A DNA stretch of 33,266 nucleotides, taken from assembly GCA_902385765.1 (NCBI GenBank), contig CABMGU010000034.1, forward strand, positions 1 to 33,266. The letters run 5' to 3'. This stretch comes from an uncultured archaeon (GTDB taxonomy: Archaea > Nanobdellota > Nanobdellia > Woesearchaeales > ARS49). This document shows, in pieces, positions 1,707 through 33,266 of this stretch. Both the position numbers and the translations under genes were made by a program. The notes under the pieces were generated by a model. It did no database searches. It worked only from the letters and a program-made list of their open reading frames with translations, and was not told the origin of the DNA. Each line of letters begins with the position of its first letter. Position 1 is the first letter of the stretch.

Positions 1707-2519
1707 ATGGGAGACATTTTAAGCAGAAAACCGGCTGAAATGAACGTATTCGAGCTTTTACAAGCTGAAAGAAACCTAATTTACCATATCCAAACAGCAA
1801 CAGGAAAAGATGAGTTAATGCCATTAGTCCATGAGCACAGAGCAATAATTCGACGAATAACTGATTATGCCATTCGAGATTCATTAACTCACTTACTCAA
1901 TCGCAATGGCTATGCCGCACTTGTACAAGGACTCGTCGATAAAGGATTAAAAACAAACCAAGATTTCGTCCACCTGATTTTTGACGTAGACAATTTTAGA
2001 AAAATTAATACGAAATACGGACATGATGCTGGTGACGCGATTCTAAGAAACCTCGCAAGAACAATTGAAAATTCTCTGACTATGCCCTCTTATCACGGAA
2101 GTTATGCCGCAATCCTAAGAAATGAAAATCCCATAAGGCTGGGCGGAGAGGAAATTGTCGTCCTTTTACCCGCGCATTCAACATGCCAAGGCAGAAATCG
2201 CGCAGAAGAATTACGCAAGAAAATTGCATCAGACTCGCAAAAAGAAGAGCAGTTACCATCAATAGCAGTGAGCGGAGGGGTGGCCTCACTGGATACCATC
2301 TTAAGAGCCTATAATTCCGCTGACCGCGTCCCAGACACAAAAGAGATTGCCAAAGCGATATATGTCTTCTCAGATTACGCTCTCTATTTCGCCAAAGAGC
2401 ACGGAAAAGATCGGGTTGTAACATTCGAGGAGGCATTACAAGAACCAATTACCCGACGTTCAAAAAGAAGACTAAGAGATTTGACAGAAATAGCACAAAG
2501 ATATAAGGATACTCTATGA
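1707..2519 (+). CDS. GGDEF-domain protein (putative diguanylate cyclase or relative)
   Basis: FDVDNFRKINTKYGHDAGDAILRNLARTI and RLGGEEIVVLLP match GGDEF signature positions; tttataaata ~25-30 nt upstream of ATG. Confidence 0.8.
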   Translation: MGDILSRKPAEMNVFELLQAERNLIYHIQTATGKDELMPLVHEHRAIIRRITDYAIRDSLTHLLNRNGYAALVQGLVDKGLKTNQDFVHLIFDVDNFRKINTKYGHDAGDAILRNLARTIENSLTMPSYHGSYAAILRNENPIRLGGEEIVVLLPAHSTCQGRNRAEELRKKIASDSQKEEQLPSIAVSGGVASLDTILRAYNSADRVPDTKEIAKAIYVFSDYALYFAKEHGKDRVVTFEEALQEPITRRSKRRLRDLTEIAQRYKDTL

Positions 2520-5870: not shown

Positions 5871-7535
5871 CTACCTAAACAATTCCTCAATCAACTCAAT
5901 ATACATCGCAGAACTCCAAGCCTGAACAAGACAACCCTCAGACAATAATTTCGAAGCGCTGCTAAGCTCGGCATGATGACCGATAACGCCCTCTTCCAGA
6001 ATCTCCCGAGTGCTGGCTTTCAAAATATGCTGAATGTAATTCTTATACTTCTTCTTGTCAAAAGCAAACAAGACAACACCTGCAAGATTGTTAATCCAGA
6101 ACCAGCTATCGCCGGAATGATAACTCTTGGAATTCTCACCAGTGTGATTCTTAACAAAAGAAGAATGGCTTTTGTCAACCGTTGACAAGCCGCCCCAATC
6201 AAGCCACAGCTTAGGCAGAACAAAATCAAAACAAGCAATCCAGTCCTTCTTCGACAACAATTCAGGATAAGCATAAGCAGCAATGAAAACATTCGGACGA
6301 ACAGTCTGGTCACCAGCACCATCAGAAAGATGTTTGCCATTCCAGAAAGCCTTCTTAACATTATCCTTAAGGGTCTGCTCAAGAGGAACTTCTTTGCCAA
6401 GCAAACGAGACAAACGGCAGGCAGACAAAATCAAACACTGCACCTCAATCCTCGCACCAGAACGGTCAATGCTGTCCATCCAGGTCTCCTTAGCGCCATT
6501 AATCACAAGACCATCCTGCAAATTACTCTCAACACGCTGCAGGAAAGCAGAAAGCTTTTCCAGCAAATACTCCTTCTCCTTCCTGGACATCTCAGGAAGA
6601 TAATCCTCAAAACGCAAAAACAGCCAGCAATCAGCAACATTCTCGCCCAAAGCTCCAGGCAGTTTGCAATTATTCAGCTTGTCAAGCCAATCAAACAAAA
6701 CAGCCTTTGCAAGACTTTCCTGCCCGGAATGCAATAATGCTTTCACGCAAACAAGCTCATCACGCGCCCAGCGCTGATGGAACCAGGGCAAGCCAGCATA
6801 CAAGCCATTATTCGAATGCAGGCAGACAAGAGAATACTGAGCGCACTCATACGCAGAACGGAAATCACTATTCTTAACATGACCAGCAGAAATGCTGTTT
6901 GAGGCAAACTTTTCAGCCTCCTTGGCAAGCATCTGCCTGTTTTTCCAGGAAGACTTCGCAAGCTTCAAAGCATCATCCTTTGACTTGGAAAAAGCAACAA
7001 CAAAACTGCCGGAAGCACGGCAACCGCGCAAAACCCATCTGGAAAAAGGAGGGCTATTGCGCAATTCATCAAAAGAATAAGTCTGCTGCTCCCACTTGTC
7101 AATCTTCTCAAAATCACAACCATACAAGGCAAGCCAGAAATCATATTCCTCGCCTGAAGTTTCACGGGAATCATTCAACTTCTCAAAATGAACCAGCAAA
7201 GCCTTATCCTCAAAAGAAAACTGATAATTACGACCCCAATCGCGATTATCAAAATTCAGCTTGCAATCAAAAAGAACATCAACTTTTGCAGAACGGGACA
7301 GCTCATAAAAGAAAACAGGCAAACGATGAGCAAACCAAAAAGACTCCTGAACACCATCACGATTGCGGGAAACCTTCCAGAACTCATTCAAAATAGCGCC
7401 AGGAGCGCCCTTCACATCAAAATGAGCAATCGTCTTGAAAACCTTATCATCACCAGAAAAAAACAAGCCCTGATAACGAGACTTAATCCCAAACAAGCCA
7501 AAACTGCCAGAGGCATTAGAGACTAAAAAGCTCAT
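5871..7535 (-). CDS. Glycogen debranching enzyme-like (amylo-alpha-1,6-glucosidase family)
   Basis: AGLPWFHQRWARDELVCVKALL, TWMDSIDRSGARIEVQ, GDQTVRPNVFIAAYAYPELLS, YHSGDSWFWINNLAGV, LLSEGCLVQAWSSA. Confidence 0.85.
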   Translation of the reverse strand: MSFLVSNASGSFGLFGIKSRYQGLFFSGDDKVFKTIAHFDVKGAPGAILNEFWKVSRNRDGVQESFWFAHRLPVFFYELSRSAKVDVLFDCKLNFDNRDWGRNYQFSFEDKALLVHFEKLNDSRETSGEEYDFWLALYGCDFEKIDKWEQQTYSFDELRNSPPFSRWVLRGCRASGSFVVAFSKSKDDALKLAKSSWKNRQMLAKEAEKFASNSISAGHVKNSDFRSAYECAQYSLVCLHSNNGLYAGLPWFHQRWARDELVCVKALLHSGQESLAKAVLFDWLDKLNNCKLPGALGENVADCWLFLRFEDYLPEMSRKEKEYLLEKLSAFLQRVESNLQDGLVINGAKETWMDSIDRSGARIEVQCLILSACRLSRLLGKEVPLEQTLKDNVKKAFWNGKHLSDGAGDQTVRPNVFIAAYAYPELLSKKDWIACFDFVLPKLWLDWGGLSTVDKSHSSFVKNHTGENSKSYHSGDSWFWINNLAGVVLFAFDKKKYKNYIQHILKASTREILEEGVIGHHAELSSASKLLSEGCLVQAWSSAMYIELIEELFR

Positions 7536-9590: not shown

Positions 9591-9615
9591 TTATTTTTCT
9601 TCTATAAATGTTTGA

Positions 9616-9706
9616 ATGAACGCCGCGGTCTAAAAGACTTGATTTTTCTCCCCACGCAAGCTAAGGGGAGAAGAAATCAACCTTGCAAAGCAAGGCGCGG
9701 CGTCAT
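9616..9706. other. Structured element copy 1: four-helix junction
   Basis: P1 9616-9627/9696-9706, P2 GTCT-AAA-AGAC 9628-9638, P3 9639-9653/9665-9680 with 11-nt loop, P4 CCTTGC-AAA-GCAAGG 9681-9695; helices abut with no unpaired junction bases. Confidence 0.85.
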
Positions 9707-9715
9707 AAAAAGAAA

Positions 9716-10369
9716 TCAGTCTATAAATTCAACTTCCCCGCCGTAAAAAGTACCTTTCTTCAGAGGAACAGGGCGCCAGTCATCAAGAACAAGAGTTGCA
9801 CCCAACCAGTCAGCAAGCTCATCAGGATTGCCGATTGTTGCAGACAAGCCGATAAGCTGAACACTCTTCAAGACCTGCTTGAGAACAGTGATTAAAATTT
9901 CCAAAGTAGGACCGCGCTCAACGTCATTAATCAGGTGAATTTCATCAATGACCACCAAACTGACAAGACTGAGCCACGGCGAATGATGACGGATTAACGA
10001 GTCCAATTTTTCTGCAGTACAAATGATTAAGTCATAATCAACAAGATAAGGGTCAGAACTATCCAAGTCGCCAATGCTCAGCGCTATTTTACAGAGATGA
10101 CCATACTTGCGCTTGAACTCTCGGTATTTCTCGTTCGCAAGCGCGATTAAAGGAACAATGTAAATGGTCTTGCCCCTGCCCTCAAGAATATGCTTCAAGG
10201 CAGCCATCTCAGCAATCAAAGTCTTGCCACTCGCAGTAGGAGTGCAAACCAGCAAGCTCTTGTTTTCCAGCAAGCCAGCTTTCAGGGCTTTCTCCTGCGC
10301 AGGACGGAAAATCGTAATACCTTCTTTCGCGATAACTTCCTTAAGTTTATCAGGCAATAAAGGATGCAT
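9716..10369 (-). pseudogene. Truncated Hel308/Ski2-like helicase (RecA1 domain only)
   Basis: CTPTASGKTLIAEM (motif I), DEIHL (II), LSATIGN (III), WRPVPLKKGTFYGGEVEFID then stop; no motifs IV-VI. Could instead be one half of a split gene. Confidence 0.65.
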
Positions 10370-12922: not shown

Positions 12923-13026
12923 ATGAAAATCTGGAGAAAGAGGGTATATAAATGTTGTGCGCAAAGCCACTGGACACTGGACATCTCGACGTGAAGTATT
13001 TAAATACAAAATCTACAGAAACAGTC

Positions 13027-13767
13027 ATGACTATTCCTCCAGAAGCTTTACCGACAGAACCAAACCAACCGCCACGCCAGATTAGAATTCCTGAAACTAA
13101 TTCTGAAGACTTTGCAGAATTCTATGGCGCAATGATGGGTGACGGGTGCATTTATGGAAATATGGCAGCATTCTGCATAACGTGCAATGGAATATTAGAC
13201 GAATGGTATTTAACCCAATATTTGAAAAAACTCTGTTTTTCATTATTTAACATACAACCAAAGATATACTATGCTAAAAAAGAACAAGTTGTGCGCTTGA
13301 TAATCAACAGCGTAAAGATAACGCGTTTTTTGGTCAAACTCGGTTTTCCAAAAGGCAGAAAAAAGGATGCTAAAATAAGGATTCCAGAAGCCTTTTTCTC
13401 AGATGACAAATTACTAGCTGCATGCCTAAGAGGCCTGATAGATACAGATGGAGGCATATACTCTCACCCACACACAAAAATCATGCTCGATTTCACCTCA
13501 GTAATTCCAAGTCTCATAACATCCGTTCACGAAGCGTTCAGTAAATTAAACTTGCAACACGGCATTTCAACCAACAGAATTCAATTTTATAGCGGCACCA
13601 AGCTAGCCAAATATTTCTCCCGTGTTGGAAGCAGCAATCCCAGAAACATCATAAGATATTCACAGTTTATCCAAACAGGAATTACTCCTTCTGCGATTGA
13701 GACAGAAAGGCTTTTAAAACACTACGATACCAGAATTAATGTACCTTACCATGGACCGGTAGTTTAG
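13027..13767 (+). CDS. LAGLIDADG homing endonuclease-like protein
   Basis: Two motifs, FYGAMMGDGCIYGN and LRGLIDTDGGIY; tatttaaata 12997-13006 places a leaderless start at ATG 13027; stop TAG 13765-13767. Confidence 0.85.
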   Translation: MTIPPEALPTEPNQPPRQIRIPETNSEDFAEFYGAMMGDGCIYGNMAAFCITCNGILDEWYLTQYLKKLCFSLFNIQPKIYYAKKEQVVRLIINSVKITRFLVKLGFPKGRKKDAKIRIPEAFFSDDKLLAACLRGLIDTDGGIYSHPHTKIMLDFTSVIPSLITSVHEAFSKLNLQHGISTNRIQFYSGTKLAKYFSRVGSSNPRNIIRYSQFIQTGITPSAIETERLLKHYDTRINVPYHGPVV

Positions 13768-17913: not shown

Positions 17914-18039
17914 GCGCCAGTGGTCTAGCGGTTATGACACTGCCTTGCCATTTGCGCTCATACGGCAGTAACAGCATATGCAAAAGCCGGATGAGCAGCA
18001 AAGAGGCAGTTGCCCGAGTTCGAATCTCGGCTGGCGCAT
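17914..18039 (+). tRNA. tRNA-Gly(GCC) with ~54-nt intron at the canonical anticodon-loop position
   Basis: GCGCCAG/CTGGCGC acceptor; CTGCC-TTGCCA | intron 17951-18004 | A-GGCAG; CCGAG-TTCGAAT-CTCGG. Intron boundary uncertain by ~1 nt; intron contains GCTCAT/ATGAGC helix. Confidence 0.9.
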
Positions 18040-19389: not shown

Positions 19390-19504
19390 GGGCCCGTAGC
19401 TTAGCCTGGTAGAGCATTGGTCTTATATGACCTCAGCCGGGACAAACATTATACCGGCTGACTAAGTCCACCAAGGGTCAGGAGTTCGAATCTCCTCGGG
19501 CCCA
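19390..19504 (+). tRNA. tRNA-Ile(TAT) with 41-nt intron at 37/38 (19428-19468)
   Basis: GGGCCCG/CGGGCCC acceptor; TTGGT-CTTATA|intron|C-ACCAA; BHB central helix CTTA (32-35) / TAAG (19463-19466) with 3-nt bulges; intron hairpin TCAGCCGG/CCGGCTGA; AGGAG-TTCGAAT-CTCCT. Confidence 0.85.
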
Positions 19505-25132: not shown

Positions 25133-26068
25133 TCAGCCAAAACGGGAAAAAACAGCAAACCGCCTATACGACTTAGCAAGACCGTGCCACACCTGCAAAT
25201 CAGTCCTCAACTTGCGCTGTTTCTGCTTGAAAGCAGACATACGAGACTTATATGTAGTAGCACCCATTTTGCAGGAATAATACTGCTCCTGCGTGGAACG
25301 CTCGGTCTGCTCAACAGCGCTCAATTCAATCGACAACAAACGAATTTTCCTTAAAGCATACAAAGTCCTTGACTCAAAGAAAATCCAAAAGCCAACAATA
25401 ACCACGCTTGCCAAAGCAATCAGCAAGCCACGCCAGTGATCTTTAGTGTAGTCAACAACATTACGCCTTGCCAAACGCAGGAAAGCGCGCTCACGAGCAG
25501 ACTCAACCTGAGCGTCCTCTAACTGCGATTTCGCCTGCTCAACAAGAGGAGGAACATCATTGTAACGCTCATCGCTAAAAGCCATCTCAGCAGAACCCAA
25601 AGTCTCAATCACGCGCGAAAGATTAACCGTCACGTTAATAGAAGCAATAGACTTCTGCAAATCAGACAACAATTCAGCAGAAGCAAAAGCCTTCTCCTTC
25701 ATACCGCGAATCCACACGGCTTTCTCAACAACAAAAGAATAATTAGCACCAACAGGAAGACCAGAACTTAATGACGCCTGAACAAGACTCGAAAGCTGGG
25801 AAGCAAGAACCATCTTATCAGACTCATTCGACGCGTTCAAAATAGCAATCTTATCCATCAACAATGAAATGTTCTCACCGTGCAATTTATCAGACATCGC
25901 ATCAAGAGCATCTTCCAAAGAGTCAACAGGCAAGCCGGCAGACTTCATCTGCCGAACATCCAAAGCAGCACTCGTGAAAGCTTCATCAGCGTCCTGCAAA
26001 GTAACAGCGGCAGCAAACGGAATCAATAAAAGCAATAGCACAGACAAAGTCGCGGTCTTCGACTTCAT
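25133..26068 (-). CDS. Secreted/membrane protein with C-terminal TM and coiled coil
   Basis: Signal peptide MKSKTATLSVLLLLLIPFAAAVTLQDADEAF; C-terminal TM GLLIALASVVIVGFWIFF. Upstream in-frame ATG at 26155 overlaps the previous stop; true start uncertain. Confidence 0.7.
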   Translation of the reverse strand: MKSKTATLSVLLLLLIPFAAAVTLQDADEAFTSAALDVRQMKSAGLPVDSLEDALDAMSDKLHGENISLLMDKIAILNASNESDKMVLASQLSSLVQASLSSGLPVGANYSFVVEKAVWIRGMKEKAFASAELLSDLQKSIASINVTVNLSRVIETLGSAEMAFSDERYNDVPPLVEQAKSQLEDAQVESARERAFLRLARRNVVDYTKDHWRGLLIALASVVIVGFWIFFESRTLYALRKIRLLSIELSAVEQTERSTQEQYYSCKMGATTYKSRMSAFKQKQRKLRTDLQVWHGLAKSYRRFAVFSRFG

Positions 26069-26130
26069 TTTTTCTCCCCTATGCCTGCAAGGGGAGCAAA
26101 AATGAACCTGAGCTTGCTCAGGCGCGACTT
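26047..26130. other. Structured element copy 2: four-helix junction
   Basis: P1 AAGTCGCG 26047-26054 / CGCGACTT 26123-26130, P2 GTC-TTC-GAC 26055-26063, P3 26064-26079/26091-26106 with 11-nt loop, P4 CCTGAG-CTTG-CTCAGG 26107-26122; no unpaired junction bases. Confidence 0.85.
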
Positions 26131-26151
26131 CTTTAATCAATTCGATACTTT

Positions 26152-29100
26152 TCATTTTCTCAACCTCGCCTTCAATGCAAGCACAGAAGCGTCAAGCTCT
26201 GCAAGCAACAACTTCAACTCTTCAGCACGCACAAGATACTTCCTGCGCGGAAGCTTTCCTTTAACGAAATACTCCTCCTGAGCCCTGCGCAAGGATTCCC
26301 TTGCATTACTCTGCTCTTCAACAGTATACCTCAACGCAGTTTTCACAGTAAGCAAGCGGGAGCGCATTATCCTCAAGCGAGCCATCTGAGACTTAATACG
26401 CTCAAGTTGGCGCTCATACTGATGCATAGCCCTATAATACTCAAGCGAACTAATCGACTTCTTCACAAACGCATCAACCTGCGCCTCACGCATATCACCA
26501 AGCAAAACAACCTGTTCTTTAGCCAAAGCGCGCAAGCGATGCCTGATGTAAACAATCAAAGCACGGCGATAAGCAAAGTAAGCGCCAACAGCGCCAAGAC
26601 CAGCAGCCAGCAACAAAGCATACCAGTAGCGATACGCGAAATTCCAGAGATTGAAAGCACGCGTGGTCTCAATAGCCCCAATCTCCATTGCCTGAGTGGC
26701 ACGAGCAGAAGCCTTGTCAAAGTCCTCCTGCTCAAAAGACTTCAAAGCAAGCTCAAGCACTCTTCGAGATTCAGAAACATCCAAACCGCGAGTAACAGCA
26801 TCATCAATACGCAGACGCAGCTCACTGATAGCCTGACCGGCAGATAACTCTCTCGTCAGCAAGTCCTTCACTTTTGCAGTAAGATAAGGCACTTTCTCCC
26901 ACAAGCCAGACTCCATTGCCTGCCTTATCTGCTCCATCAAAGCATCAGCAAGATTGTGCGGGTAATCCTTAGCAAGAACTTCCTGATACAACTTGTCAAC
27001 ATCAGAAACCTCTTTCTCAGCCTGAATCTGGCTCAACTCGCGGATAATCACGTGCACGGTCTTGTACTCAATGATTTTCTTCTTGTACATCACAGAGTAC
27101 ATTATGCCGTTCCTCATCTCAGTTCCAGGAGCATCCAGTTCAGCAGTAATCTCAAAAGTAACATCCAGCTCAGACTTTCCAGCATACGCAGGAGCTGCAA
27201 GATTGATGAAGAAGAACTTCGTATGACCGTAAATGATGTCTTCCAAATACTGAGGAGTCCAGGAAACATACTTCTTCATATAGCCCTGAACATCCAAAGT
27301 CACATTCCTCATCACAGACTCAGCATACACGTTAGTAACTTCCAACGGGAAGCCAATCTTCTCGCCACGCACAACCTCGATAGTCTCATTTGTGACAAGC
27401 ACAGGCATTTCCTCAAAAGTCTTGATGAACGCGCCAGCAGTAACACCTGCATAAGGACTGGGACCAGCACCACCACCTCCACCACCTCCACCACCTCCGC
27501 CTCCTCCACCACCGCCGCCTTTCTGCAATACTAAAACCTGGTCAGTAGTGTTAATAGTCAAATTATTAGGACCAAGCTGGGCACCGCTGTCATTAAAGCC
27601 ATCAGCAGATGCTGTAATATCCCTAAGACCAACCACTGCATCAGATGGAAGAGCAATAATAATCGCATTAGACTCGCTGGCATTAGTCTCTATCTCAGAG
27701 AAGAACACACTCAATGAACCGCCAGTCAAAATCCAGTCAGGAGGCAAAGTGATATTCAAAGTAACATTTGAAGCGTTTAGCACTCCAATATTATCAACAG
27801 TAGCCTCAATCTGCACGCCAGCCTGACCCTGCGTCAACTGAACAGGCAAAATAGTGAAGTGAGAGTACAAGAACGCATTGTTTGTCACAACGATGGTTGC
27901 AGTAGTATAGTTAGACGGCGGAGTGGCATTCGGACCAGCAGTAATAGTGATGTTAAGAGGGAAAGAACCGAATGAAACAGGCGCGGTAACATTCACCTCA
28001 ATAACCCGAACTTCCTTCGGAGTCAGATTAAAGCTCGATTCATTAAAGAACGTATCAGGCCAGGTGCTTGACAGATTAAAGTTAAAATTAAAGTCGCCAG
28101 TATTGTTAATCGTCAACGTGCCAAGAGTTCCATTCTGGCCAGGAGAAATGGTAACAGCGCCAAACGTTGCAGGAGACCTCGTCCAAGTATACTCAAACTC
28201 AATCGTGCGGTTAATCGTAGGACCGGTGCCATTATTCCCAACAGTATCGTTCGCCGTAAGGAAGAACGAATAATTGCCCGGAATAATAGGAGTGTAAGAC
28301 GCGTTGTACAAGTCAGTGCCATTCGGAGTCATCGTAACATTAAGAATAGAAATTCCTTCCTTCAAAATGTGCAGTATGACAGTGTCAACAGCAGTCAGAT
28401 TATCAGTAACATTTCCAGTAAAGTTAATCTCCTGTCCAGGGTCAAGAGGACCAGGACCGTCAGGCTCTAGCGTCAAATTATTGAAGTCAGGAGGAGTCAA
28501 ATCAACAGTGTAGAGATAAGTATCGCTAGTGTTCGTACTATTATAAGTATCAATACACGTGACACTCCAGTAATAATGCGCCTGCGCAAGACCAGCAAAC
28601 GTGAAAGACGTAACAGTGTTATTCAAAGTGCTCGCATTGGTAGCATTAAGCGTGGCGTTCAACTCAAGAGTGCAATTCATAGTTGGAGACAAATCATCAG
28701 TCGCATTAAAGCTGAAAGTCCTTGAAGTGCTCGTGGTATTTGTATCATTTGCGGGAGAAATAAGCTGGATGTAAGGCGGAAGGTCAGAAACAACCGTTGT
28801 CTGCGCTGAAGCGCTGACAGTAGTATTGCTTCCATTAATGTCCGCAAAGGTCACATCAACATTGTTGGTAAGAATCGTTCCATTAGGCAATGCGGCACTC
28901 ACATTAACAGTAATGTTAACAGTTGTTGAATTTCCAGGAGAAATATTCCCGAGGAGCCAAGTCGTATTCCCTGAAGTAGGCACAGGAGATGCATTATTGA
29001 ACACTACGCCAGCAGGATAAGACTCAACAAGCGTCACATTATACGCAGTCCCGTTGCCAGTACTGTTAACAAGAATCTCATAATGCAACTGGGTTCCCCT

Positions 29101-32100
29101 TACAACAGGGTCAGGATAATCCGACTTAATAAGAACAATAATCGGAACATTAATCACAGCAGTAAAGTTCGTCATCTCAGTATTATTAACGTTATAAGAC
29201 GTATCATTGGCAAAGAACGTCACATTATACAAGCCAGCAAGAATAGGAATAATGAACGAACCATTAAACTTGTCAGTGCCAGGCACGTTCGTCAAAGTAA
29301 TGTTTTGGGCAGAACCGTCAGGCAAATGAACAGTTGCATAAACAAGACTGATGTTAGTCTCATCAGTCACATTAGCAGAAATCTCAATCCTCTCAGTAAC
29401 ATTGAAAACAGTATCTGCAACAGGCATCAAATCAAACACTGAAGGAGGCGATATGTCACACACGCCATTCCACGGCTGACCATTTGTAAAGAAGCCCTTG
29501 AAAATACCCTGGTCAGTTGAATTGCTGAAAGCAACCACAAACCTGCCAGGACAGAGAGTGTCATTAGTAATCGGGTCACGCGAAGCAACATCAAGCAAAC
29601 GGAAAGTAGCACCAGGCTGAGCATCGACAGTAAACGGAGCAGTCACCTGACTGCCAGAGCTGTTATAGACTGAAGCCCTGATAGTGTTAGAGACGTTATT
29701 ATACCACACGAACACAAACAAGTCCTCAGTACTGGTAGCATTCCTTCTGACAGTACCGCCAGCAACACGCGAAATCGTGCCAGCAGCAGCATCAACAATT
29801 GCAGGCGCAAGAATGACCGCATTGTCTCTTGAACGCATGGCAATCTGAATATTAGCATCTGAAGAATCATACCAGACAAGACCAAACTGCTCATCGTTCA
29901 TACTCGCAACAGCAACCTGACCAGTCTCACCAACAGTGGCGTCGATAGTACCAGTAGCAACAGAACCGCCCGCCTCATTAAGAATTGCGAACTTCGCATC
30001 ATTTGAAGCGTCATCAAACCAGAAATAAGTCCAGCGCGAACTGTTAATTCCAGCACAATCAACAATATTCTGCAAAGTCGCTCCAGGAGCCATATTAGCA
30101 TCAACATTCGACAAGCCAACAGCCTGAGTGCCGTTATTGTAGAACTCCATAAAGGCAGCATCATTGCTTGAATCATTGGCATAACAAACTGCAAACCTGT
30201 CTCCCAGCTCTCCAATGGCAACATCCTTATTCAAGCCAAGACTGCCGCCAAGCGGGATTACTGAAGAAGAGTTGCTGCCATTAACATTGAAGAACTGCAT
30301 TTTCAAATCATTAGCAGTGCCTCTAGCCCAGACAACCACAAAGTTAGTCTCGTTCAGCATAGACACGTCAATTCTGGATGAAACATTATTCACATCAGTA
30401 TCCACAACAACCGTGTTCACGATAACGCTTCCATTCGTATTCATAACCTTGAAAGCAGAACGATTCAAGGCAGCATCAATGTACGCGATAACAAACGAAG
30501 TGTAATTAATCGGCACAACCGCAACATCAACAGCAGAGCTGGTCTCAAGATAACCGGGGTCGCCAGGAGTCAGAGTGAAAGTATAGTTCTGACCCATAGT
30601 CAGATTCTTGAATTCAGTCCAGTTGCCCTCAGGACAATCCTCTCCCGTGTAATTATAGTACTTGCACACGTGCAACATCAGGTCAGCAGCAGAAGTCGCA
30701 AAAACGGTAATATTCGTGAAATTAATTCCAGAAGTATCAATCGCATAATCATCAAAGTATGCAGAATCATCATACGGCACATCGTCATCCAATTTTATAA
30801 CACTGTACACCGAGTCCTCATTGTGCAAAGTAATATTCATCTGGTGCACTCTGCTACCATTGATGTCAATTGTCAAGTCCAACAAACCAGAATAGTTGGC
30901 GGTAACAGTAACTGTATAATTCCAGAACTGGTCGGTGCTATTGATAAGGTCAATAATATGATAAGTGATTCTTGTGAAAGTAACCGTCTCGGAATTATTG
31001 ATATTATTACCAGTATCATTTGCAAAAATCCTAATGGTGTAATTGCCCATTAGAGTTAAGTTGAGGAAAGTCAGATTGTAAAGAGTGCCGCTAACGCTCG
31101 GAATATAGGTTTCATTGGTTCCATCAGGATAAGTAATCTCGAACAAAACAGTATCAACAACACCGAAAATATCAGTCACATTCGCAGTAATGTTAACCGA
31201 CTCATTGAGCAGGAATGTGGAGCCGGCTGTCGGAGATAAGATGACAACTGAAGGAGGAATTCCAAGAACAGTCGTCAACGTGCCATTCGTAACAGTAACA
31301 TTTTCTCCAGTAATATTTCCGTAAGTCACATTGTATGTATTATTCAGAATTGAACCGTTAGGAGCAGCAGCACTGACGTTAAGAGTAATATTAACAGTAG
31401 CTTCACCAGGAGACAGGTTGCCAAGCAGGAAGGTATCATTGCCAATACTTGGAGCAGGAGAAGAACTATCAAAGGTCGTATTAGCAGGGTAAGACTCAAC
31501 AACAGTCACGTTCTCAGCAACATAGTCACCTGTGTTATTAACCAAAATAGTATAGTTCAACTGGCCGCCATTGCTGACCGGGTCAGGAACGCCAACCTTG
31601 CTCGTCTCAATAACCGGGAAGCCAAGAACGGTCGTAAGCTCGGTATCACTCACAGCACCTGTCTGACCTGAAGCATTCTCAAAAGTCACATTCACTGTGT
31701 TAGACAAAACAGTACCGTTAGGCACAGTAATGCTGACATTAACCGTGACGTTAACGAGAACAGAAGCGTTCGGAGACAGATTGCCCAACAACCAAGTATC
31801 ATTACCAATACTCGGACCAGGAGATGCACTGTCAAACAACACTCCCGAAGGATACGTCTCATTCAGCGTGATGTTATACGCGGTGTCATCACCCGTGTTG
31901 TTGATGAATATAGTATAGTTGAGCTGGTGACCTTTGATGACTGGGTCAGGATTGTCATTCTTGATCGTCACAACAACAGGACTGCCGAGAACAGAAGTGG
32001 TCGTGCTATTGTCAACAGTTGAATATGTTCCAAAGAAGTTCGCAAACGTAACATTGTAAGTGTTATTCAATACAGTACCATTCGAAAGGTTGGAACTAAC

Positions 32101-32859
32101 ATTGACATTAATGTAAATAGAAGTCGCACCAGGAGGCAAGTTGCCAAGACTAAACGTATTATTGCCGGATGAGGGCGCAGGAGTGCTGTCATTAAACTCA
32201 ACACCAGCCGGGTACTCATCAATTACGGTCACGTTGAAGGCGGCATCATCACCAGTGTTGTTCACAACAATCTGATAGGTGAGCGTGGTGCCTCGCTGCA
32301 CAGGATTAGGAACACCGGTCTTGAGAGTACTAATCACAGGATAACCAATAACAGTAGTAGACTCGGTATCACTAACAGTCGCATTATCGTTGGAACTATT
32401 GTAATAAGTCGCGTTCACAGTATTACTCAAAACGGTACCATTAGCAACTGAATTGCTGACGTTCACAGTAATGTTAATCGTTACAGACTGGCTTGGCGAC
32501 AAGTTACCCAACAACCACGTGTCGTTGCCTGATGAAGGCGCAGGCGATGCACTGTCAAACGCAACACCAGACGGGTACAACTCCAACAACGAAACATTAA
32601 ACGCCATATCATCGCCAGTATTATTCACTAAAATAGTATAATTCAACTGAGTACCCTTCAAAACAGGATCAGGACTATCACTCTTAATCGCAACAACAAG
32701 AGGACTACCAAGAACAGAATTCACAGTACTATTACTCACCGTCAAATACGCACCAAAGAAGTTCGCAAAAGTCACATTATACGAATTATTCAAAACAGTG
32801 CCGTTAGCCAAGCTTGAGACATTCACAGTAATGTTAATTGTAGTTGAGCCAGGCGACAA
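26152..32859 (-). CDS. Giant DUF11-repeat surface protein, poly-Gly linker, C-terminal TM and coiled coil (main open segment)
   Basis: Repeats of type PDPVxxGxxLxYxIxVNNTGDDxAxNVTxxExYPxGVxFxxxxPxPSxGNxTxxLGNLSP...ITVNVS; TM WYALLLAAGLGAVGAYFAY. Real start lies upstream of the window or of the in-frame stop. Confidence 0.85.
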   Translation of the reverse strand: MSPGSTTINITVNVSSLANGTVLNNSYNVTFANFFGAYLTVSNSTVNSVLGSPLVVAIKSDSPDPVLKGTQLNYTILVNNTGDDMAFNVSLLELYPSGVAFDSASPAPSSGNDTWLLGNLSPSQSVTINITVNVSNSVANGTVLSNTVNATYYNSSNDNATVSDTESTTVIGYPVISTLKTGVPNPVQRGTTLTYQIVVNNTGDDAAFNVTVIDEYPAGVEFNDSTPAPSSGNNTFSLGNLPPGATSIYINVNVSSNLSNGTVLNNTYNVTFANFFGTYSTVDNSTTTSVLGSPVVVTIKNDNPDPVIKGHQLNYTIFINNTGDDTAYNITLNETYPSGVLFDSASPGPSIGNDTWLLGNLSPNASVLVNVTVNVSITVPNGTVLSNTVNVTFENASGQTGAVSDTELTTVLGFPVIETSKVGVPDPVSNGGQLNYTILVNNTGDYVAENVTVVESYPANTTFDSSSPAPSIGNDTFLLGNLSPGEATVNITLNVSAAAPNGSILNNTYNVTYGNITGENVTVTNGTLTTVLGIPPSVVILSPTAGSTFLLNESVNITANVTDIFGVVDTVLFEITYPDGTNETYIPSVSGTLYNLTFLNLTLMGNYTIRIFANDTGNNINNSETVTFTRITYHIIDLINSTDQFWNYTVTVTANYSGLLDLTIDINGSRVHQMNITLHNEDSVYSVIKLDDDVPYDDSAYFDDYAIDTSGINFTNITVFATSAADLMLHVCKYYNYTGEDCPEGNWTEFKNLTMGQNYTFTLTPGDPGYLETSSAVDVAVVPINYTSFVIAYIDAALNRSAFKVMNTNGSVIVNTVVVDTDVNNVSSRIDVSMLNETNFVVVWARGTANDLKMQFFNVNGSNSSSVIPLGGSLGLNKDVAIGELGDRFAVCYANDSSNDAAFMEFYNNGTQAVGLSNVDANMAPGATLQNIVDCAGINSSRWTYFWFDDASNDAKFAILNEAGGSVATGTIDATVGETGQVAVASMNDEQFGLVWYDSSDANIQIAMRSRDNAVILAPAIVDAAAGTISRVAGGTVRRNATSTEDLFVFVWYNNVSNTIRASVYNSSGSQVTAPFTVDAQPGATFRLLDVASRDPITNDTLCPGRFVVAFSNSTDQGIFKGFFTNGQPWNGVCDISPPSVFDLMPVADTVFNVTERIEISANVTDETNISLVYATVHLPDGSAQNITLTNVPGTDKFNGSFIIPILAGLYNVTFFANDTSYNVNNTEMTNFTAVINVPIIVLIKSDYPDPVVRGTQLHYEILVNSTGNGTAYNVTLVESYPAGVVFNNASPVPTSGNTTWLLGNISPGNSTTVNITVNVSAALPNGTILTNNVDVTFADINGSNTTVSASAQTTVVSDLPPYIQLISPANDTNTTSTSRTFSFNATDDLSPTMNCTLELNATLNATNASTLNNTVTSFTFAGLAQAHYYWSVTCIDTYNSTNTSDTYLYTVDLTPPDFNNLTLEPDGPGPLDPGQEINFTGNVTDNLTAVDTVILHILKEGISILNVTMTPNGTDLYNASYTPIIPGNYSFFLTANDTVGNNGTGPTINRTIEFEYTWTRSPATFGAVTISPGQNGTLGTLTINNTGDFNFNFNLSSTWPDTFFNESSFNLTPKEVRVIEVNVTAPVSFGSFPLNITITAGPNATPPSNYTTATIVVTNNAFLYSHFTILPVQLTQGQAGVQIEATVDNIGVLNASNVTLNITLPPDWILTGGSLSVFFSEIETNASESNAIIIALPSDAVVGLRDITASADGFNDSGAQLGPNNLTINTTDQVLVLQKGGGGGGGGGGGGGGGGGAGPSPYAGVTAGAFIKTFEEMPVLVTNETIEVVRGEKIGFPLEVTNVYAESVMRNVTLDVQGYMKKYVSWTPQYLEDIIYGHTKFFFINLAAPAYAGKSELDVTFEITAELDAPGTEMRNGIMYSVMYKKKIIEYKTVHVIIRELSQIQAEKEVSDVDKLYQEVLAKDYPHNLADALMEQIRQAMESGLWEKVPYLTAKVKDLLTRELSAGQAISELRLRIDDAVTRGLDVSESRRVLELALKSFEQEDFDKASARATQAMEIGAIETTRAFNLWNFAYRYWYALLLAAGLGAVGAYFAYRRALIVYIRHRLRALAKEQVVLLGDMREAQVDAFVKKSISSLEYYRAMHQYERQLERIKSQMARLRIMRSRLLTVKTALRYTVEEQSNARESLRRAQEEYFVKGKLPRRKYLVRAEELKLLLAELDASVLALKARLRK
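27469..27520 (-). repeat. Poly-glycine codon run (about 17 Gly)
   Basis: Low-complexity caccacctcc... region translating to KGGGGGG...GAGPSP. Confidence 0.9.
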
Positions 32860-33266
32860 GTTGCCAAGATACTAAGTATTGTTGCCAGATGAAGGAGCAG
32901 GAACGCTGTCATTAAACACTACACCAACAGGATACACATCAACAACACTCACATTAAACGCAGCATCATCACCAGTATTGTTAATCACAATCTGATACGA
33001 CAACGTCGAACCACGAGGCACAGGCTCAGGAACACCAGTCTTGAAAGTACTAACCACAGGATAACCACGAACAGTAGTAGACTCAGTATCAGACACGGTC
33101 GCATTATCATTGGAACTGTTGTAATAAGTCGCGTTCACAGTATTACTCAAAACGGTACCATTAGCAACTGAATTGCTGACGTTCACAGTAATGTTAATCG
33201 CTACAGACTGGCTTGGCGACAAGTTACCCAACAACCACGTGTCGTTGCCTGATGAAGGCGCAGGCG
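32401..33266. repeat. 720-bp tandem super-repeat (two DUF11 units) with a near-identical stretch
   Basis: 32401-32546 and 33121-33266 are offset by 720 nt and differ at one position in 146 (t32482 vs c33202 region). Confidence 0.85.
32872..33266 (-). pseudogene. Upstream part of the giant DUF11 protein, separated by in-frame TAG (32872-32874)
   Basis: Same frame and same repeat family as 26152-32859; repeat unit reads SSGNNT-TAG-YLGNLSPG where the aligned unit has SSGNNTFSLGNLPPG. Confidence 0.7.

Follow-up and report, generated by a model that had tools for sequence, protein, structure and literature searches.

Features of the locus

The window, by which we mean the whole analyzed stretch of 33,266 nt, is contig C34 of a genome assembly of 1.04 Mb (G000; 98 contigs, 95% complete), referred to below as the own genome. 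Among the window's genes are those for prefoldin, FtsY, a ScpA-like protein, a Hel308-like protein and KaiC, which suggest a small-genome archaeon, probably a member of the DPANN group. Between two minus-strand ORFs lies an element of 84 nt, belonging to a family of about 85 nt, in which a P1 stem encloses the hairpins P2, P3 and P4 with zero unpaired bases at the junction (Table 1). The fold and the sequence proposed earlier in a sequence-only reading of this DNA were found as described, including the zero-gap junction and the 11-nt P3 loop, and the same plan was recovered in the other window copy.

Table 1. Coordinates of the four-way-junction elements and their parts in the window
Feature	Position	Strand	Remarks
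Complete four-way-junction element, CGCG-type P1 subfamily	26047–26130	+	covariance model match 26046–26131, E 4.2e-18
P1 5' arm, AAGTCGCG	26047–26054	+	
P2 hairpin, GTC-TTC-GAC	26055–26063	+	
P3 hairpin, TTCATTTTTTCTCCCC/GGGGAGCAAAAATGAA	26064–26106	+	15 paired positions and one T.C mismatch
P3 11-nt loop, TATGCCTGCAA	26080–26090	+	
P4 hairpin, CCTGAG-CTTG-CTCAGG	26107–26122	+	alternative: 7 bp with a TT loop
P1 3' arm, CGCGACTT	26123–26130	+	
Second complete copy	9620–9703	+	same plan as 26047–26130
Direct repeat TCTATAAAT, 5' copy, flanking the second copy	9601–9609	+	10 nt filler
Direct repeat TCTATAAAT, 3' copy, flanking the second copy	9720–9728	+	16 nt filler

A scan for zero-gap four-way junctions gave scores of 26 for the element at 26047–26130 and 25 for the copy at 9620–9703, and 20 dinucleotide shuffles of the window peaked at 21, in agreement with the earlier view that this is not a chance hairpin. 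A third match in the window (6163–6342, score 22, with very long loops) looks like a chance one.

The minus-strand ORF at 25133–26155 is open across all 84 nt (28 codons) of the element, and its signal-peptide-like N terminus, MKSKTATLSVLLLLLIPF, would begin at an ATG located within the insertion. Judged from the reading frame, this ORF may owe its start codon to the element. The neighboring minus-strand gene (26152–33234) encodes a very long surface-type protein with tandem repeats of about 120 residues and is split into two ORFs around 32859–32872. Elsewhere in the window, the Hel308-like helicase gene (9716–10369, minus strand) encodes only 217 aa, the N-terminal part, and a matching stretch of equal length occurs in the sister species. 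A GGDEF (diguanylate cyclase) domain protein is encoded at 1707–2519 (plus strand) in this archaeal genome. The LAGLIDADG protein encoded at 12952–13767 (plus strand) is free-standing and resembles the intein region of a V-type ATP synthase subunit A model. Two tRNA genes detected with Rfam and missed by ARAGORN (17914–18038 and 19390–19504) span 125 and 115 nt and therefore probably contain introns.

Family size and distribution

A covariance model (R1) built from 24 own-genome copies located the element at about 54 distinct places in the own genome at E<=0.0015, along with three weak ones. The element had first been described as a "second copy"; it is indeed a real copy, and the wording understated the size of the family. 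A genome-wide pattern search of the kind proposed at the same time returned 36 occurrences of CTCCCC-N9-13-GGGGAG in the own genome versus 2 of the reversed pattern. The core then regarded as conserved, CTCCCC-N11-GGGGAG, turned out to vary (CTCCTC, TTCCCC, CTCCCT), and the pairs at the junction, G/GT..AC/T..A/CC..GG/C (slashes mark the junction), are more constant.

With the covariance model, six copies were found in the sister species, and the element was detected in 3 of 59 close relatives. Within the own family, it is common only to the window's genome and its congeneric sister species, and it is absent from the other genomes of that family that were searched. Its distribution across the order is patchy (24 of 359 genomes, 15 of 222 genera), and matches in a phylum sample of 380 genomes were confined to the host's order. 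Between genera, all arm sequences differ, and the plan of P1, a short P2, a long P3 with a bulged tip and P4 is kept. No match was obtained in the phage and plasmid collections, and viral contigs gave a single weak one (18.7 bits). The copies are intergenic, often 10–20 nt past stop codons, and their orientation with respect to tandem genes is random (17 versus 19).

CTCCCCACGC..GC..GGGGAG palindromes are abundant in Reyranella and related Alphaproteobacteria (L179, L198 and other loci), some spaced about 300 nt apart. These and the other bacterial palindromes that dominated the pattern scan of contigs are unrelated to the element.

Conservation of the fold and of the junction

Watson–Crick pairs alone suffice to fold 77 of 83 elements into a four-way junction, and 62 have zero unpaired bases at the junction. 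The helices of the 83 elements contain 3013 Watson–Crick pairs versus 12 G.T and 16 A.C single mismatches. When G.U was allowed, it made up 2.9% of pairs, equally on both strands, compared with 10.7% in 12 tRNAs of the same loci, which served as the control. As a constraint on RNA would favor G.U on one strand, its rarity and its equal share on both strands indicate that the structure is maintained as DNA, not RNA. The compensatory base changes claimed from the two window copies were borne out in 24 own copies, which carry double changes at 19 of 30 consensus pairs, whereas one-sided changes are rare. The P3 tip is present in both orientations among the copies, as ACGCCTTGCAA and as TTGCAAGGCGT. 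Mechanical perfecting of palindromes by template switching is an alternative to selection for structure, and the two are not fully separated by these data.

The pair adjoining the junction is G-C in P1 (61/61), G-C in P2 (60/61), T-A in P3 (61/61) and C-G in P4 (60/61) among 61 distinct zero-gap elements, which were collected by a model built from own copies, a sampling that favors conserved positions. In the same set, the third and fourth pairs of P1, P3 and P4 mostly have an entropy of 1 to 1.9 bits. Thus, the junction-lining pairs are the most conserved feature of the element, and the arms vary with compensation. Arm compensation together with the near-invariant lining pairs indicates that selection acts on the junction. 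The near-constancy of the lining bases, set against arms that vary, suggests that the decisive property is the folded shape of the DNA. The strand passing from P3 to P4 reads A/CC at the junction, and the ACC trinucleotide has been reported to stabilize stacked Holliday junctions in crystals (PMC4813226); this resemblance, an analogy, may serve as a lead.

Mobility in the own genome

Filled and empty sites were compared, as the sequence-only reading had proposed, with the sister species (G001), whose DNA is about 85% identical. Six orthologous sites were testable, and in five of them the sister site is empty, opposite the own copies at C46, C18:3880, C91:5248, C91:9899 and C91:16204; the site C51/C72 is filled in both genomes. 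Opposite the window copy at 9620–9703, the sister genome lacks the element and has other genes over 1.85 kb. Several copies at empty sites are flanked by duplications, namely AAATTCTTGAAGTGAA (16 nt) at C91:16204, CTGAATACGT (10 nt) at C91:5248 and about 12 nt at C91:9899. Overall, 10 of 45 own copies have flanking direct repeats of at least 8 nt, whereas mismatched flanks would give about 1.6; the shorter of these repeats could alternatively be local sequence similarity, for example promoter motifs. Based on the empty sites in the sister and the flanking duplications, the element family is mobile. The earlier alternative of a "selected or mobile family" is thus answered on both sides, selection being supported by the arm compensation and the junction-lining pairs. 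An apparent insertion in a coding region was also seen at C91 (L287 8175–8273).

The duplications in the own genome are variable (8–16 nt) and lie 1–38 nt from P1, with fillers that are unrelated and of varied length, unlike those of a precise transposon. The flanks of the own copies revealed neither terminal inverted repeats (TIRs) outside P1 nor target-site specificity, and by inspection of 44 copies no conserved bases or tetranucleotide were found beside P1. Y1_Tnp (PF01797) was found in neither the own nor the sister genome; it occurs in 5 of 24 element-bearing genomes versus 123 of 335 others of the order. DDE_Tnp_1 was likewise found in neither of the two genomes, whose assemblies are incomplete, and other DDE families may occur there; it is present in 8 of the 24 element-bearing genomes. 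RVT_1 had no match in the own genome and occurs in 5 of the 24. A Y1 transposase, DDE_Tnp_1 or a reverse transcriptase as the common mobilizer is therefore unsupported, none being matched in the own genome and each being present in a minority of the element-bearing genomes. As for the features of a retroposed (SINE-like) element, target duplications of variable length (8–16 nt) were found, and a reverse transcriptase was not found in the own genome.

The element as a MITE in related genomes

Three genomes of the order (G281, G289 and G291) have the junction enclosed by inverted repeats and exact 9-bp target-site duplications (TSDs). The TSDs adjoining inverted repeats in related genomes are GGAATCGTG, TGCCAAAGC, CGGTGGCTT, TGTGCTGCT, CGCTAGTGG and GTCCAATAG. 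The copies of another genome, G312, terminate in GGCTYTGTAGAAAAT, the TIR type of an IS5-like insertion sequence in G286. That insertion sequence is complete (L158 1119–2039), with the TIR GGCTCTGTAGAAAGTC, the 9-bp TSD CTTATAAGC and a transposase of 281 aa (NCBIfam IS5_2, E 1.9e-27, under the curated cut-off). The equal TIR types make it likely that an IS5-like transposase moves the element in the relatives that carry it as a miniature inverted-repeat transposable element (MITE). The DDE_Tnp_1 loci of G281 and G289 were rejected as the source of the MITE ends in those genomes, since these loci lack the TIRs of the MITEs found there. The same junction is common to at least four different TIR types. 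A CTCCCC...GGGGAG hairpin was observed upstream of the transposase gene in the IS5-like element of L158.

Other zero-gap junctions nested in the element

A second repeat of about 70 nt, with no genes, forms the zero-gap four-way junction TCGG/AAAT..ATTT/CCGAGTGTGCTCGG/AAATC..GATTT/CCGA. Five own copies that differ in P1 and P4 (L016, L017, L021, L024 and L029) contain it at an identical position in the 5' arm of P3. These "composite" copies had been considered recombinants of two elements, an idea abandoned once folding revealed that a second element had inserted into the arm of P3. A third repeat of about 50 nt, TCAA/GACAAAC..GTTTGTC/TGGACTCCA/GCCGAAC..GTTCGGC/TTGA, also forms a zero-gap junction and has a TGG..CCA mini-hairpin. 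It was found inside P4 of two own copies (L011 2574–2623 and L026 2490–2539), with look-alikes in two other genera (G278 and G289; loci L114 2853–2898 and L134 1409–1459). At C51/C72, where both genomes have a copy, the third repeat occupies P4 of the own copy, and the P3 loop of the sister copy contains another hairpin cluster. Both repeats are unrelated in sequence to the element, and the equal geometry in unrelated sequences gives support, short of proof, to a role for shape.

Interpretation and alternatives

These data are best explained by a non-autonomous element of mobile DNA, about 85 nt long, one strand of which forms a fully paired four-way junction maintained at the DNA level, a reading that we regard as probable. 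The element would thus be a new, structure-defined variant of non-autonomous palindromic mobile DNA. We suppose that the strand would fold during replication, in the lagging strand, as excised single-stranded DNA or as an extruded cruciform, and that a junction-recognizing protein would bind the fold in mobilization or replication, so that the junction stays intact. Copying templated by the hairpins would help to keep the arms perfect and could invert the P3 tip. Where suitable outer ends exist, a transposase acting on them would move the element; in the relatives, this would be a MITE with TIRs moved in trans by an IS5-like transposase.

A more far-reaching proposal, which we rate below even chance, is that shape defines a class of small mobile DNA elements, in which the perfectly paired Holliday-type junction formed by the single strand would itself be the recognition site of the mobilizing or copying machinery. 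At least three families of this order, unrelated in sequence, share the zero-gap geometry and insert in each other's arms, and the arms would be free to change while the junction stays.

The element may also be an ordinary IS5-family MITE whose inside is incidentally rich in hairpins, the copies in the window's genome being the same with decayed ends. The exact TSDs and TIRs in G281, G289 and G291 and the IS5-like insertion sequence with the TIR type of G312 favor this explanation, but one junction is combined with at least four TIR types, it is the inside and not the ends that is conserved across the order, and own-genome copies have perfect P1–P4 without a TIR or a fixed TSD length; we therefore consider it unlikely. 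A structured RNA (regulatory element, small RNA or structure at transcript ends) that spread as a repeat would account for the strong fold and for the intergenic position shortly past stop codons. We judge it highly improbable, as G.U does not exceed A.C in frequency and has the same share on each strand, the model fits both strands, orientation to genes is random, most testable sites are empty in the sister, and no Rfam family came near its gathering score. Just as improbable is a REP/REPIN-like element moved on single-stranded DNA hairpins by a Y1 (IS200/RAYT) transposase, to which the intergenic imperfect palindromes with a bulged hairpin and their conservation at the DNA level would correspond; Y1_Tnp is missing from the own and sister genomes and is scarcer in element-bearing genomes than in the others, and the conserved tetranucleotide beside P1 is absent.

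Significance and comparison with known systems

The known small palindromic mobile elements are, to our knowledge, hairpins or inverted-repeat ends. What is conserved in the present family, within an order of small archaea, is a DNA four-way junction whose lining pairs are almost invariant. Recognition of a natural repeat as a folded, Holliday-like junction thereby becomes directly testable, and the family supplies substrates for archaeal junction-binding proteins. It is also a case of compensatory evolution in which DNA and not RNA is the target, and the lack of a G.U excess on either strand provides an internal control; it further reveals a fauna of mobile elements in small-genome archaea. 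In the collection of papers searched, no report dealt with both DPANN and miniature inverted-repeat elements.

Like the prokaryotic MITEs (reviewed in PMC10969869), including those of the IS5 family, the element is short, non-coding, intergenic and present in many copies with target duplications, and it has TIRs and 9-bp TSDs in related genomes; it differs from them in that the conserved part is the zero-gap junction, common to different TIRs, rather than the ends, and in that the own copies have neither TIRs nor TSDs of constant length. REP/REPIN sequences with their RAYTs are likewise dispersed intergenic palindromes with internal bulges that are kept as folded DNA, although they are single or paired hairpins with a GTAG-type foot and a Y1 transposase, and neither the foot nor Y1 was found here (PMC3733652, PMC3116915, PMC6006769). 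The GC clusters of yeast mitochondria (GC42, PMC4478555) are also small mobile palindromes with no known enzyme, short flanking duplications, mutual merging and a constrained palindrome, but they are mitochondrial single palindromes with duplications of 2–3 nt, for which no four-way junction has been described. Finally, insertion sequences that target REP sequences (PMC1525189) resemble the second repeat in the P3 arm, as a second mobile repeat occupies one place in a palindromic repeat, whereas the invader here is itself a gene-less zero-gap four-way junction of about 70 nt.
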